Source of the DNA: Phormidium tenue FACHB-886
GTDB taxonomy: Bacteria > Cyanobacteriota > Cyanobacteriia > Elainellales > Elainellaceae
NCBI RefSeq assembly: GCF_014764505.1
Contig: NZ_JACXWX010000043.1
Location: 1-38,451 of the forward strand
Reading direction: 5' to 3'
DNA: 38,451 nt
Shown: positions 19,058 through 25,331 of the stretch, piece after piece
Layout of the letters: each line of letters begins with the position of its first letter
How positions within the stretch are numbered: position 1 is the first letter of the stretch
Made by a program: the position numbers and the translations under genes
Notes under the pieces: generated by a model
Databases searched by the model: none
Seen by the model: the letters and a program-made list of their open reading frames with translations, nothing else
What the model was told of the DNA's origin: nothing

Positions 19058-19684
19058 AATTAAATAGGGTCATGAACCAGGCGATGTGTTGTACGGCTGA
19101 AGCACTGGTTTCTATGGTTTGAAACTACAAGCTCCAATCAAGTCTTTCCCGCTTTTTGCAACACAAATATGTGACACACTTGCTGCAATCCTCTCTTTGT
19201 CAGGTCCTTTCCTGTCGGATAACACAGGTGATATTGGTGTGAATTCCATCGGCTTCTAATTGCCCAAGTCAGCGAGCAACAGTGAAAAGTGCAGGGGCAA
19301 CGGTGCAGCAAAAAGCTTGACTGTTTGAGCTTTGAGAAGGGCGATCGAGGCTCAGAGCTTGAGAATTGGAGCAGTTTGCTCGACGTTTCGGATTCTGGCT
19401 TTAATTTTGGAGTAGACAGGCTAAAGTTCAGAGATTTGTAGAATCGATATTTGTCAATGTCACTAGGCATCACATCCAGCCACGAGCGATCGTACCAAGC
19501 CGCGCAGCGCTGCAACTGCCCTCGATGAGTGCGCTGGGTTGTTGTCTGCCTTGCCCGTTTGCCTGAGAAACTCCTCGATCTGCCAGTCATGTCGCGATCT
19601 TCACGTTTGACAGTAGCACGATCAATTACGATCGTAATTTGAGCAGATTAATTCACCTGATTGCTGCCTGCAAGGGCTCTGTTT
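19058..19684. other. 627-bp intergenic region between divergent genes
   Basis: This region separates the FAD gene from the STAND gene and should hold both promoters. A 150-codon frame on the minus strand (19138-19590) has no recognisable domain and odd composition (many Ser, Cys and Arg); I do not call it a gene. The clearest element is a perfect 16-bp palindrome at 19624-19639. Confidence 0.4.
19624..19639. promoter_or_regulatory. 16-bp perfect palindrome upstream of the STAND gene
   Basis: AATTACGATCGTAATT is fully self-complementary and ends 45 bp before the ATG at 19685. A dimeric repressor could bind here. CGATCG cores are common in this genome type, but the flanking symmetry extends well beyond the core. 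Confidence 0.35.
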
Positions 19685-22600
19685 ATGACTCCTGAGGAAG
19701 CCATTGTTTCGCTTGATACCCTGTTGCCCGGACAAAAACTCAAAGACCTGCAAGAGGATGTGTTTCGTTACACCTGGCAGGGCTGGAGTTATGCTGAAAT
19801 TGCCGACCAGGTTGGCTACGATGTTGGATATATCCGCGATGTCGGCGCGAAGCTATGGCAGCAGCTATCGATCGCCTTTGGGGAATCTGTCACCAAAAAT
19901 AACGTACAGACGGTTGTACGCAGGCAAACGCTACAGCGGCAATCGGCAACGCTCGACTCACCTGTTGGAATTCCTTCAGGCTGGAGCGCAGCCTCTTTGG
20001 AGGGGCTCGCTCCATCCCAGCCCGCGATTCCGACGCGCCAACACTGGGGAGAAATCATTGATGTCCCCGTTTTTTACGGTCGCACTGAGGAACTCAATCA
20101 GCTAGAGCAGTGGATTGTTACTGACCAGTGCCGTCTGATTGCTCTGTTAGGAATGGGCGGCATCGGCAAAACAACCTTAGCAATCAAGCTGGTGGAACGA
20201 CTCCAAGATCAATTTGAAGTTGTAATTTGGCGATCGCTCCGCAACGCTCCACCGCTTGAAGAATTGCTCACAACCATCATTCCCCTGCTGTCTGAGCAAA
20301 AATTTGCATTGCCCACAACTCGCGCTGAACTAATTGCGCTGTTGATGCAGCAGTTGCGATCTTCACGCTGCTTGTTGATTTTAGACAACGCTGAAACGGT
20401 TTTAGAGCAGGCGGCGATCGAATATGGAGAATTGTTTCAAAAAGTCGGCGCAGAACGTCACGCAAGCTGTTTAGTGTTGACGAGCCGAGAAAAGCCGAAA
20501 CCGTTTGATACGCTAGAAGGAAAAACGCTGCCCGTCCGCACGATCGCGCTCAGCGGTTTGCGGCTCGAAGATGTGCAGGCGATCGTCAAGGCTGAAGGCT
20601 GTTTTTATACTTCGGAAGCCGAACTGCACAGGCTCACTGAATGCTATTCTGGCAATCCGCTGGCGTTGAAAATTGTTTCAACGACCGTGCAAGATTTGTT
20701 TGACGGCAGCATCGCGCAGTTTTTAGAGCAGGGATCGATCGCGTTTGGCAACATTCGTACCCTCATTGCTGAACAGTTTGATCGCCTCTCAGAACTCGAA
20801 AAACAAGTAATGTATTGGCTGGCAATCCACCGCGAATGGGCAGGCATTGCCGAGCTGCGATCGGATCTGATGGCGGAGCGATCGCAAGCCCAATTGCTGG
20901 AAGCATTGCAGGCGCTTAAACGCTGTTCTTTGATTGAGCGAACAGCAGGACGATTTACGCTGCAACCTGTAGTGATGGATTATGTCACCGAGCATTTTAT
21001 TGAGCAGGTGTATGAGGAAATTAAGACGCAGAATGTTCGCTTGTTCATCAGCCATGCTTTGATCAGAGCGGAGGCGAAAGACTACGTGCGCGAAAGTCAA
21101 ATTCGCGTCATTCTTCTGCCACTTATCACCAGGCTATTGAATGAATGGCGATCGCAAAGTGCGGTTTCTAGTCAACTCGATCAGCTGTTGGTCAAGCTGA
21201 AAGCGGAGTATGGAACTTCAGCCGGATATGGCGGCGGCAATATTATCAACCTGCTGAATCATTTAGACATTGACTTAAGTGATTACAACTTTTCAGGTTT
21301 GAGTATTTGGCAGGCCTATCTACAAAATGTAAGTTTGCAGGGCGTGAACTTTACCGATGCAGATTTAGCGAAATCTGTGTTTACCGAGACGCTGGCAACG
21401 CCCGCCGCTGTTGCTTTTAGTCTGGATGGGCAGCTTTTGGCAACGGGCGATCTCAATGGTGAAGTGCGGCTGTGGCGAGCGAGCGATGGCAAAAACATTC
21501 AAGCATTTCAGGGGCATACAAGCTGGGTGTGGTCGCTGGCGTTTAGTCCCGATGGTCGCACCCTCGCGAGTGGCAGTGACGATCGCACCATCAAACTGTG
21601 GGATCTTGACACGGGGCAATGTCTGCAAACGCTCGAAGGACACACTGGCTCAATCTGGTCAGTAGCTTACAGCGCAGAAGGTCAATTTGCCAGCGGCAGC
21701 GAAGACCAAACTATCAAGCTGTGGGATTTGAACACGGGGCAGTGTCTACAAACCTTGCAGGGACATACAAACTGGGTGCGATCGATCGCCTTTTGTCCGG
21801 TCGCGCCAATCCTGGCAAGTGCGAGTGACGATGCCACGATCAAGCTTTGGAATCTGCACACTGGAAATTGCGACCGCACCTTGAGCGGACATATTGGTCA
21901 TGTCTGGTCGATTGCGTTTCGCCCAAACAGTTCTGTTTTAGCAAGCGGCAGCAGTGATTGCACCGTGCGATTGTGGCAAGTCGAAACAGGCGAATGTCTG
22001 CAAATCATGCGCGGACATACGAACTGGGTGCGATCAATCGCCTTTTGTCCGCAGGGTCAACGCTTAGCCAGCGGCAGTGAAGATCAGACCATTAAGCTGT
22101 GGGATCTCGATACGGGTCAGTGTCAGCGGACGCTTAAAGGTCATGCAAACTGGGTGCGATCGATCGCCTTTAGTCCCGATGGTCAAACGCTCGCCAGTGG
22201 CAGCGGCGATCACTGCGCCAAACTTTGGGATGTGGTAACGGGAAACTGTCAGCGGACGCTCAAAGGCTATACCAATCGTGTCTGGTCAGTGGCTTTCAGT
22301 CCCGTTGGCGCTAGCCTGCCGTCAGGCATTGGTGCAACTTTAGCCAGCGGCAACGACGACTACACCATCAAGCTGTGGGATGTTAGCAGTGGCAGGTGTG
22401 CCCGTGTCTTACAAGGGCATCACAACGCCGTCTGTGCGATCGCATTTCATCCTGATGGCGAACTGCTTGCCAGCGGCAGCAGCGATCAAACCGTGAAGCT
22501 GTGGGATTCGCGATCGGGGCAGTGTTTGCAGACGTTGCACGGGCACACGAGTCGCATCTGGTCAGTGGCTTTTAGTCCAACTCAGCCACTGCTTGCCAGC

Positions 22601-23266
22601 AGCAGTGACGACCATACGATTAAGCTGTGGGATCTCGATACGGGTCAGTGTCGCCAAACCTTACAGGGTCATACAAGCTGGGTTTGCTCGATCGCCTTCA
22701 GCCCCAATGGTCAGCAAATCGTGAGCGGTAGCTACGATGAAACGCTCAAGCTATGGGATGTGGATACGGGCGAATGTCTGCAAACCTTTGAAGGGCATAC
22801 GATGTGGGTGTGGTCAGTGGCGTTTAGCCCAACGGGTGAAACGATCGCGAGTGGCAGCGGCGACGATACCGTGAAGCTGTGGAATTTGCAGGGACAGTGC
22901 GATCGCACACTGCACACAGATTCCAAGCGGATTTGGTCGATCGCCTTTAGCCCCAACGGAGAATTTTTGGCGATCGGCGGCAGTGATTGCACGGTGAAGC
23001 TGTGGAATGTGGCGACAGGCGAATGCGTTCAGACACTTAGCGGACACACCAGCCTTGTCTGGTCGGTGGCTTTCAGTCCGAATGGTCGCTGGCTGGCGAG
23101 TGGCAGCCAAGACGAAACGATTCGACTTTGGGATCTCGAAGCGGGAACTTGTCTCAATCTCCTCAAAGCCGATCGACCCTACGAGCGCATGAACATCACA
23201 GGCGTCACTGGACTGACTGAGGCGCAAACCGCCACGCTGCGAACGTTAGGGGCGATTTTAGAGTAA
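19685..23266 (+). CDS. STAND NTPase: vMAP-type HTH, NB-ARC and 14 WD40 repeats
   Basis: A 1193-residue signalling ATPase. Residues 1-95 are the HTH domain typical of cyanobacterial vWA-MoxR-associated (vMAP) STAND proteins ([35 protein letters not shown]). Residues 125-400 form an NB-ARC module with P-loop GMGGIGKTT (Lys162) and Walker B LLILDNAE (Asp234). A winged-helix/helical region and a short pentapeptide-like linker ([22 protein letters not shown]) follow. Residues about 571-1160 are 14 WD40 repeats, enough for two seven-bladed propellers, and repeat 8 has an 8-residue insertion. The propellers probably sense a ligand and trigger NTPase oligomerisation; defence or programmed-death roles are known for related STANDs, but no effector enzyme is visible here. 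The ATG at 19685 has an AAGGG site 8 bases upstream. Confidence 0.93.
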
Positions 23267-23551: not shown

Positions 23552-23562
23552 TGTTTACATCT

Positions 23563-23795
23563 GGTGATGATACTCATTACACGGCTAAACCAAACTTATA
23601 ACGGTTGATATACAATCCAATCACAATATCGTGCATCAGTTCAGATTTAGAGAAGCAGATCGTTTTGCGCACCAGTCGCTTAATTCGTGTTCTCAATGTC
23701 AGATGCTTCCGCTCAATTTTCTGCGTGTTTACCTTGCCCATTTGGTGCTGGTCTGGGGCTAACTTTCGTTGATAAACCGGTTCAAGAGTTTTCAT
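23563..23795 (-). pseudogene. IS1-family transposase C-terminus with end repeat
   Basis: The translation NTQKIERKHLTLRTRIKRL, VRKTICFSKSELMHDIVIG and LYINRYKFG is the well-known C-terminus of IS1-family transposase. The sequence GGTGATGATACTCATTAC at 23563 resembles the IS1 terminal repeat (GGTGATGCT...) and marks the element's end. Everything upstream of about 23795, including the HTH and most of the catalytic domain, is missing. Confidence 0.75.
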
Positions 23796-23824
23796 AGACA
23801 GCCTGCAGATTTATATTGTTTCCA

Positions 23825-24211
23825 TTACAATCGCACGTAAATGTTTGCCATACCTTGAGGTTCATTGATGTACTTACCAGTGTGTGAAGGGCTATAGGTC
23901 TCGTTATACAGACACAGGCTTTGAGGGTTTTTGGCAATAAACTGCATCATCTGTCGATGAGGTTCACTTCTGAAGAATTCTTTAAGGCTTTTCTCTGAAA
24001 GCCAATAACTGATCATGATGACTTCATTAAGACCGCAAATCCCTGCTTTGACTTGTATACAGCCTTCAGCTTGAGTAGTAACACTTCTAATCCACAAAAG
24101 TTTTTTCCATAGCCAGAAAAATCCAGCGCGATCACGAGCTACCAATCCATTAACAAAAACGACTGCCTCTGGGCTTTCTGGAAGATCGATTCGATAAACG
24201 GAATAACTCAT
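23825..24211 (-). CDS. antibiotic-biosynthesis-monooxygenase-like (dimeric alpha/beta barrel) protein
   Basis: A 128-residue protein, probably of the ABM/DUF4188-like dimeric alpha-beta-barrel group: FVNGLVARDRAGFFWLWKKL, GCIQVKAGICGLNEVIMISYW, KEFFRSEPHRQMMQFIAKNP. Members include heme-free monooxygenases and many of unknown substrate. An AGGAG ribosome-binding site sits 9 bases before the ATG. It is divergent from the PadR regulator at 24339, and the 127 bp between them carry two palindromic operator-like sites. It is therefore likely the regulator's main target and may act on a toxic phenolic or lipophilic compound (inference). Confidence 0.7.
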   Translation of the reverse strand: MSYSVYRIDLPESPEAVVFVNGLVARDRAGFFWLWKKLLWIRSVTTQAEGCIQVKAGICGLNEVIMISYWLSEKSLKEFFRSEPHRQMMQFIAKNPQSLCLYNETYSPSHTGKYINEPQGMANIYVRL

Positions 24212-24274
24212 ACATCAACACTCCTGACAGTTTTAATTGCATAAACTGACAGCACTATGGTCAACTATGTTACT

Positions 24275-24290
24275 ATTCAACTAGTTGAAT
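24275..24290. promoter_or_regulatory. operator 1 for the PadR regulator (predicted)
   Basis: ATTCAACTAGTTGAAT is a perfect 16-bp palindrome in the divergent intergenic region, 49 bp before the padR start codon. Confidence 0.6.
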
Positions 24291-24305
24291 ATATAGATAA
24301 AGTAT

Positions 24306-24321
24306 AGTCAATTAGTTGAAT
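24306..24321. promoter_or_regulatory. operator 2 for the PadR regulator (predicted)
   Basis: AGTCAATTAGTTGAAT matches operator 1 at 14 of 16 positions and is 31 bp away, close to three helical turns, so dimers could bind the same face of the DNA. It ends 18 bp before the padR start codon, which fits autorepression. Confidence 0.55.
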
Positions 24322-24338
24322 ATGTCAACCCTTCATCT

Positions 24339-24899
24339 ATGGCGTTATCTCATGCAATTTTGGCAACCTTGCTCAACCAACCCTGTAGTGGCTACGACCT
24401 GCGAAAACGGTTTGAAGGCTCTGTTGGTTTCTTCTGGCAAGCAAGTTTCCAGCAGATTTATCGCGAACTGAGCAAGTTGGAGGAGCAGGGTTTACTGAGC
24501 TCCGAGACAATCCATCAGCAAAATCGTCCCGACAAGAAAGTTTATCAGATGACGGAGGTGGGCAAAGATTACCTGAAAGCCTGGATCGCTGAACCTTGCA
24601 GCATAACTCCATCGCGAGATGATCTACTGGTGAAAGTATTCGCAGGTTACTTGGTACCAATGGAGACATTTCTAGCCGAGTTAAGGCAACATTGCAAACA
24701 ACACCAGGAGCGGCTAACGGTGTATCGACAAATTGAGCAACAATTTTTTGTGAATCCTGAATCCTTGCCGCTTGAGGAAAAATTTCGTTACCTGACGTTG
24801 CTAAATGGAATTCGTTACGAGTCGGAGTGGCTAGCTTGGTATGAAGAGGCGATCGCCATACTAAGTGAGCATTCAACTAGTCAAGTGAACCCTCAATGA
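24339..24899 (+). CDS. PadR-family transcriptional regulator
   Basis: A 186-residue PadR-type repressor: N-terminal winged helix (ALSHAILATLLNQPCSGYDLRKRFEGSVGFFWQ, QIYRELSKLEEQGLL, the wing with RPDKKVYQMTEVGKDYL) and a C-terminal helical dimerisation domain (Vir_act_alpha_C-like, KVFAGYLVPMETFLAELRQH). PadR proteins respond to phenolic or other small ligands. It is divergent from the monooxygenase-like gene at 24211, with palindromic sites in between. A degenerate third copy of the palindrome (ATTCAACTAGTCAAGT) lies inside the end of this gene at 24871-24886. Confidence 0.92.
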   Translation: MALSHAILATLLNQPCSGYDLRKRFEGSVGFFWQASFQQIYRELSKLEEQGLLSSETIHQQNRPDKKVYQMTEVGKDYLKAWIAEPCSITPSRDDLLVKVFAGYLVPMETFLAELRQHCKQHQERLTVYRQIEQQFFVNPESLPLEEKFRYLTLLNGIRYESEWLAWYEEAIAILSEHSTSQVNPQ

Positions 24900-25025: not shown

Positions 25026-25331
25026 TTAAACACTCCCGTTTTTGTCTGCGTTCAAGATCCGTGATGCCTTTTTTGCAATCTCTAGCTGAATCGCCAACTG
25101 TCCCACCATGCGTTCCAACTCGGCGATGCGTCCTTCCTCCTGGGTAGTTTGCTCCCCACTCTCAAACGTTTGGTGCGCTCGTTCGATAAATTCTCACTTC
25201 CATCGAGTCAGCACCGAATTGCGAATTTTGTAAACCCGACAGGCATCGGCTGGACTTTTCTCGCCACGGATGACTTCGAGCACCACTTTGGCTTTGAACT
25301 GGGCGGTGTATTTGCGTTGGTTGGCTGCCAT
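25026..25331 (-). pseudogene. IS3-family OrfA transposase subunit with internal stop
   Basis: Reading from the ATG at 25331 gives MAANQRKYTAQFKAKVVLEV, IRGEKSPADACRVYKIR, then NSVLTRWK followed by a stop and EFIERAHQTFES. It continues to GRIAELERMVGQLAIQLEIAKKAS and ends DKNGSV. This is the HTH plus leucine-zipper protein (OrfA) of IS3-family elements. The premature stop after TRWK and the absence of any OrfB downstream show it is dead. The bases beyond the ATG (to about 25388) are probably the element's end region. The 126 bp between padR and this relic hold only an 8-bp inverted repeat (24981-24988 and 25013-25020). Confidence 0.75.

Follow-up and report, generated by a model that had tools for sequence, protein, structure and literature searches.

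Subfamily 1 of the PadR regulators comprises proteins of ~180 aa with a large helical C-terminal domain, according to the survey in PMC3506622. Among them is AphA of Vibrio cholerae, a long PadR of solved structure (1YG2). As recounted in PMC6855506, the AphA operator identified by ChIP-seq is ATGCAA-N4-TTGCAT, with a 25-bp footprint. The same source gives occlusion of RNA polymerase as its mode of repression, describes co-operative binding at adjacent sites, including a pair at tfoX that yields a 37-bp footprint, and relates that AphA was originally known as an activator.

A different operator form is given for LmrR, an inverted ATGT/ACAT motif with a spacer of ~8-10 (PMC3506622). For Bacillus subtilis PadR, structures exist with operator DNA (5X11) and with p-coumaric acid (5X13 and 5Y8T). 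A further protein of similar fold is Rv1176c of Mycobacterium tuberculosis, for which our literature search found no paper joining it with PadR. The search also returned little on PadR regulators of cyanobacteria; the PadR protein Pex is one that we take to be cyanobacterial. Pex is tabulated in PMC3506622.

Results

A long PadR regulator is encoded divergently from a monooxygenase-like gene

We analyzed a stretch of 38,451 nucleotides from Phormidium tenue FACHB-886 (the window), which corresponds to one contig (C194) of an 8.9-Mb genome. It contains padR and a monooxygenase-like gene in divergent orientation, separated by an intergenic gap of 127 bp (Table 1). The padR product matches the N-terminal winged-helix family PF03551 at 53.9 bits (cut-off 27) and PF10400, by which we scored the large helical C-terminal domain of subfamily 1, at 85.7 bits (cut-off 22.4), placing this protein of 186 aa in the long subfamily. 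Its closest relatives are found in cyanobacteria, such as Stenomitos, Leptolyngbya and Tolypothrix.

To place this regulator among proteins of solved structure, we compared both its sequence and its predicted fold with known regulators. The nearest relative by full-length sequence is AphA (phmmer E 8e-35), ahead of Rv1176c and of B. subtilis PadR, which shares the fold family and the long C-terminal helical domain but is more distant (E 1.4e-17). The structural model (pLDDT 90.4) matched Rv1176c best (8IOI, E 2.6e-14); the complex of B. subtilis PadR with DNA came next, and then AphA. In this model residue 37 starts a predicted helix (residues 37-49) that we take as the recognition helix. AphA reads A-S-H-Q-Q-V-Y-R-E-L in this region, where the window PadR reads A-S-F-Q-Q-I-Y-R-E-L; AphA combines His37 with a G in the operator half-site, and the window PadR combines Phe37 with a T. 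Rv1176c (ATHQQIY) also has His at the position where the window protein has Phe.

The padC operator has the form ATGT-N8-ACAT. At up to one mismatch, this pattern had no match between the two genes and 11 matches in the whole window, compared to 16.0 expected. Given its absence between the genes, we rejected an operator of the padC (phenolic) type there; with AphA, and not a phenolic-acid PadR, as the closest solved relative by sequence, phenolic control of the window PadR is unsupported.

The divergent gene product matches PF13826 (Monooxygenase af470-like) at 30.1 bits (cut-off 25) over residues 46-108 only. Among the invariant columns of 27 aligned members are Trp70, His85, Glu104 and Tyr106. 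The structural model (pLDDT 78.9) had 105 PDB matches at E <=0.001, and many of the top matches are titled as ABM-type monooxygenases, with TM-scores by query length of about 0.5-0.6. These ABM-type oxygenases, including SnoaB (3KG0/3KG1) and RslO4 (7BIO), resemble the model in fold (E 5e-6 to 1.4e-5) at 9-16% identity for SnoaB and RslO4, and the Pfam match is likewise shared.

The gene pair is flanked by transposase remnants at 23560-23816 and 25060-25331, both on the minus strand. One is an IS1 transposase end (PF03400) and the other a stop-interrupted piece of HTH_Tnp_1 (PF01527); such remnants on both flanks point to a mobile neighbourhood for the pair. A 1201-aa protein rich in WD40 repeats is also encoded in the window (19661-23266); on visual inspection, its N-terminal half appears NTPase-like.

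Table 1. Coordinates of the genes, candidate operators and predicted promoter in the window.
Feature	Position	Strand	Description
PF13826 monooxygenase-like gene	23825-24211	-	128 aa; Pfam match; modelled ABM-type alpha/beta fold
Degenerate extra site	24259-24274	.	TCAA half-site at 24261-24264, 16 bp upstream of the site 1 TCAA
Candidate operator site 1	24274-24291	.	Perfect 18-bp palindrome TATTCAACTAGTTGAATA; 16-bp core 24275-24290; columns conserved in 25 Phe-type loci
Predicted monooxygenase promoter	24301-24328	-	-35 TTGACA (24328-24323), 16-bp spacer, -10 TATACT (24306-24301)
Candidate operator site 2	24306-24321	.	AGTCAATTAGTTGAAT; core inside the monooxygenase promoter spacer; columns conserved
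padR	24339-24899	+	186 aa, long (subfamily 1) PadR; PF03551 + PF10400; residue 37 is Phe
Weaker third copy	24871-24886	.	3 mismatches; judged outside the system; conserved in 1/25

Twin palindromes with an AphA-type layout lie between the two genes

The original prediction described one perfect and one near-perfect 16-bp palindrome, 31 bp apart between divergent genes, and its coordinates and flanking genes were accurate. Sites 1 and 2 have 0 and 2 mismatches, respectively, with a start-to-start distance of 31 bp, and the third copy has 3 mismatches; 0.17 matches per window are expected by chance at up to 3 mismatches. A single palindrome means little, as the window holds 2 perfect 16-bp palindromes compared to 0.7 expected by chance. 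The weight of the evidence is in the repeat and its conservation, rather than in palindromy alone.

The predicted window operator, ATTCAA-CTAG-TTGAAT, consists of two inverted 6-bp arms around a 4-bp gap, the same 6-N4-6 palindrome found in the AphA operator, with arms that each differ from the AphA-type arm ATGCAA by one base. The AphA consensus itself had 3 matches in the window at 2 mismatches, compared to 3.3 expected. The geometry of the pair is unlike that of the AphA pair at tfoX, since a 37-bp footprint is tighter than sites 31 bp apart need. AphA also differs in having many mapped targets: the window operator occurs at 4 places in its genome at up to 2 mismatches, both twin sites included, which does not exceed the 6 places for a reversed-pattern control, and we therefore claim no regulon.

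The twin sites and their spacing are conserved upstream of related padR genes

We assembled related padR loci from a contig scan (17 loci), the organism's own genome, PadR searches of 36 and 386 related genomes, a monooxygenase search of the 386 and 20 further regions, keeping 92 distinct loci after exclusion of 12 duplicates and 2 partial loci. Twin sites were counted in an early set of 49 distinct loci (34 with at least 45% identity and 15 with 30-45%), as two TCAA-N4-TTGA matches upstream of padR with at most one mismatch each and 28-35 bp apart. By this definition they were present in 20 of the 34 closer loci, where first-order Markov resampling of the upstream regions gave an expectation of 0.03, and absent in 14, one of which (L013) has a broken padR start and was scored as a miss. 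The more distant group had twin sites in 2 of 15 loci (0.01 expected).

Spacing was surveyed across all 25 Phe37 loci of the full set, allowing distances of 30-34 and no more than 2 mismatches in each site; three loci (L024, L017 and L065) needed 3 mismatches, and in L008, L024 and L026 the pair used is not the one nearest to the gene. The distance was 32 in 21 loci, 31 in 3 and 33 in 1. This is about three helical turns, a spacing that would place two dimers on one face of the DNA. In 13/25 Phe-type loci, another TCAA lies upstream of the site 1 TCAA at an offset of exactly 16 bp, compared to 0 or 1 loci at the other offsets from 8 to 39, and this extra half-site may hold a third, weaker dimer.

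Conservation did not extend to the third copy, which had been proposed to allow looping with the intergenic sites. The string exists, with its 3 mismatches, but a match of at least 12/16 at the same place was found in only one of the 25 Phe37 padR genes, that of the window itself. A 12/16 match at this place in L010 runs over the stop codon. We rejected three-site looping on these grounds and read the third copy, which lies inside codons, as a coincidence within the 3' end of padR.

Site 2 fills the spacer of a predicted monooxygenase promoter

Conserved columns also flank site 2. On its right, TGTCAA is conserved in 18-22 of the 25 Phe-type loci per column; on its left, TATA is conserved in 20-25 per column, with an A four bases further left in 24. 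On the minus strand, these columns correspond to a TTGACA and a TATA separated by a 16-bp spacer that site 2 fills; a reading with an 18-bp spacer is also possible. The window's own TTGACA-16-TATACT has 11/12 promoter matches, in a scan that performs at chance level (1 found, mean of 1.0 per shuffle). For padR, no conserved -35 was found upstream of site 1 across the 25 Phe-type loci. As site 2 fills the predicted monooxygenase promoter spacer, this arrangement is best read as repression by occlusion.

Two features of other loci in the set bear mention. Near several HlyD-linked, Gln-type padR genes (L082, L083, L086-L088 and L096), the site nearest to padR looks decayed and the -35-like TGTCAA is kept. 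The P. tenue genome itself encodes a paralogous PadR (L003, contig C168; 49% identity) with Gln37, which faces a gene for an HlyD-like exporter protein and has three CTCAA-like or related sites; cross-talk between this paralog and the window PadR is possible.

PadR residue 37 is associated with one base of the operator half-site

To relate the regulators to their operators, we recorded residue 37 and the base preceding CAA in 77 of the 92 loci; the remaining 15, in which the helix pattern found no match, are mainly an ADQAQIY outgroup and frames that are broken or distant, including L013. In these 77 cyanobacterial loci, the base was mostly T with Phe37 (24/25, 1 tie), Gln37 (19/22; 1 G, 2 unscored) and Tyr37 (1/1), T in 1/4 Ser37 loci (3 ties), and G in 16 of the 25 His37 loci (3 T, 6 unscored). 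Counted as single arms, Phe-type loci had 86 T and 2 G, His-type loci 45 G and 11 T, and Gln-type loci 47 T and 28 A, making Gln the looser class. Several His-type loci, including L067-L069 (L069 being cyanobacterial), contain the exact ATGCAA-N4-TTGCAT.

We added 14 plasmid loci, hand-picked for spread among 60 listed of 135 matching records, of which thirteen are from Actinomycetota and Pseudomonadota and one is from Synechocystis. Among the 12 His-type loci of this group, 5 had G and 7 were unscored; of the 2 Pro-type loci, one had T and the other was unscored. The scored Pro37 case is L121 on a Streptomyces clavuligerus plasmid, where the T-type site ATTCAACTTGTTGAAT lies upstream of padR and the divergent gene is NTF2-like.

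In the combined set of 91 loci, the base could be scored in 71. Residue 37 ranked first of the 186 PadR residues as a predictor of this base (phi 0.87, followed by residue 121 at 0.57), in a ranking that compares residues sharing one tree, so that relatedness remains, and that was made after residue 37 had been noticed. A naive Fisher test gave p = 2.4e-11 but takes no account of relatedness, and we do not treat it as proof. The tree gave 1 supported independent switch (4 on the best tree), too few for proof, and the independent-pair test cannot reach significance. The exceptions are three His-type loci with T and one Gln-type locus with G. We conclude that the association of His with G, and of other residues mostly with T, is strong but not proven.

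Related padR genes face two subfamilies of PF13826 enzymes

We asked which genes lie opposite padR in the same 77 loci, taking as neighbour the nearest divergent gene recognized by tblastn within the examined flank. The neighbour was a window-type monooxygenase in 16 loci, a second PF13826 subfamily in 10 and an HlyD-like exporter protein in 24; one locus (L024) had a Coq4-like gene with a second-type PF13826 gene behind it, and 26 had none of these types. We ran Pfam on seven neighbour proteins (four second-type, one Coq4-like and two HlyD-like). The four second-subfamily proteins matched PF13826 at 142.7 to 152.3 bits, and three of them also matched PF13816 (haem-containing dehydratase) below the cut-off (E about 3e-4), making a haem enzyme possible.

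The window-type monooxygenase occurred in 6 of the 386 genomes, with a divergent padR within ~1.5 kb in 5 of these, the window's own included; it had no match among 72,556 plasmid records. In the sixth (L060), the monooxygenase gene (1501-1875) has a divergent TetR gene and no padR, and the region separating the two genes contains TGTTGACATTGTCAACT and GTGTCAACAT repeats. Regulators of this enzyme can thus be swapped. The second PF13826 type was found in 14 of the 386 genomes. Of its 9 long matches, 7 have a divergent padR within ~1.5 kb per side and an eighth (in G380) at ~1.8 kb. The ninth (L132, genome G374) has the palindrome ATACAACAAGTTGTAT upstream of the second-type enzyme gene and no adjacent padR. 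No padR was found in the ~1.5-kb flanks in the five genomes with fragments only of this type.

Discussion

We propose, with good confidence, that this locus encodes an AphA-like PadR acting on twin ATTCAA-N4-TTGAAT operators, which represses both the oxygenase gene and padR and is released by a small molecule. What we observed directly is a set of sites with conserved sequence and spacing, a recurrent pairing of genes and an association between residue and base; PadR binding, co-operativity, repression, autoregulation and ligand release are inferred. In this mechanism, a long PadR dimer would occupy each of the two operators in the intergenic gap. At site 2, the bound dimer would lie over the spacer between the -35 and -10 elements of the oxygenase promoter and exclude RNA polymerase; its counterpart at site 1, on the same side of the DNA, would probably bind co-operatively with it and help to repress padR. 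A small molecule would then release PadR and induce the enzyme that acts on that molecule. That the arms read ATTCAA and not the ATGCAA of His-type relatives would be due to Phe37, the first residue of the recognition helix.

The assignment of the twin palindromes to the adjacent PadR in the original prediction agrees with their recurrence upstream of padR, even where the other neighbour differs, with the AphA-type layout and with a half-site base that tracks residue 37. These observations also weigh against the proposal that another regulator binds the palindromes, which adjoin padR for some other reason. PadR binding is a prediction from sequence, and the TetR partner of the enzyme in L060 shows that its regulator can differ; still, residue 37 tracks the base better than any other residue of PadR, the sites stay with padR as its neighbours change, and we regard binding by another protein as improbable. 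It is somewhat less improbable, but still unlikely, that PadR binds these sites and activates one of the two genes instead of repressing both. AphA was itself discovered as an activator (PMC6855506), and a padR-activating position is conceivable at site 1, which lies upstream of the monooxygenase promoter only in the padR direction, where no conserved padR -35 was found. Against activation, site 2 lies between the -35 and -10 elements of the predicted monooxygenase promoter, which is a repressing position. Looping between the intergenic pair and the third copy, inside the 3' end of padR, has the presence of that copy in its favour, but with conservation in 1/25 Phe-type padR genes and related codons without the palindrome in L011, we consider it highly improbable.

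Beyond repression by PadR at the twin operators, we consider it slightly more probable than not that residue 37 acts as a single-residue specificity switch of the AphA-like PadR clade, by which His reads ATGCAA, and Phe, Tyr, Pro and, loosely, Gln read ATTCAA or a near form. The window PadR would accordingly belong to the AphA-like regulators, with its target changed by one residue, and would act on half-sites arrayed in a 16-bp phase (the extra half-site, site 1 at +16 and site 2 at ~+48).

Our literature search found no paper on a PadR-PF13826 pair, and none combining PadR with DUF4188, which we take to be the older name of PF13826. The module overall is an ordinary-looking divergent regulator/enzyme pair with an unusually readable operator code; what is new is an AphA-like operator family in cyanobacteria and, probably, a one-residue reading rule. 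As two PF13826 oxygenase subfamilies are tied to one regulator class, an inducible detoxifying role is suggested. For this clade, the analysis predicts an operator and names a target gene pair, together with a rule by which one residue would set the DNA reading. If the rule is true, the targets of AphA-like PadR proteins would be easier to predict from sequence, and orthogonal small repressors could follow.
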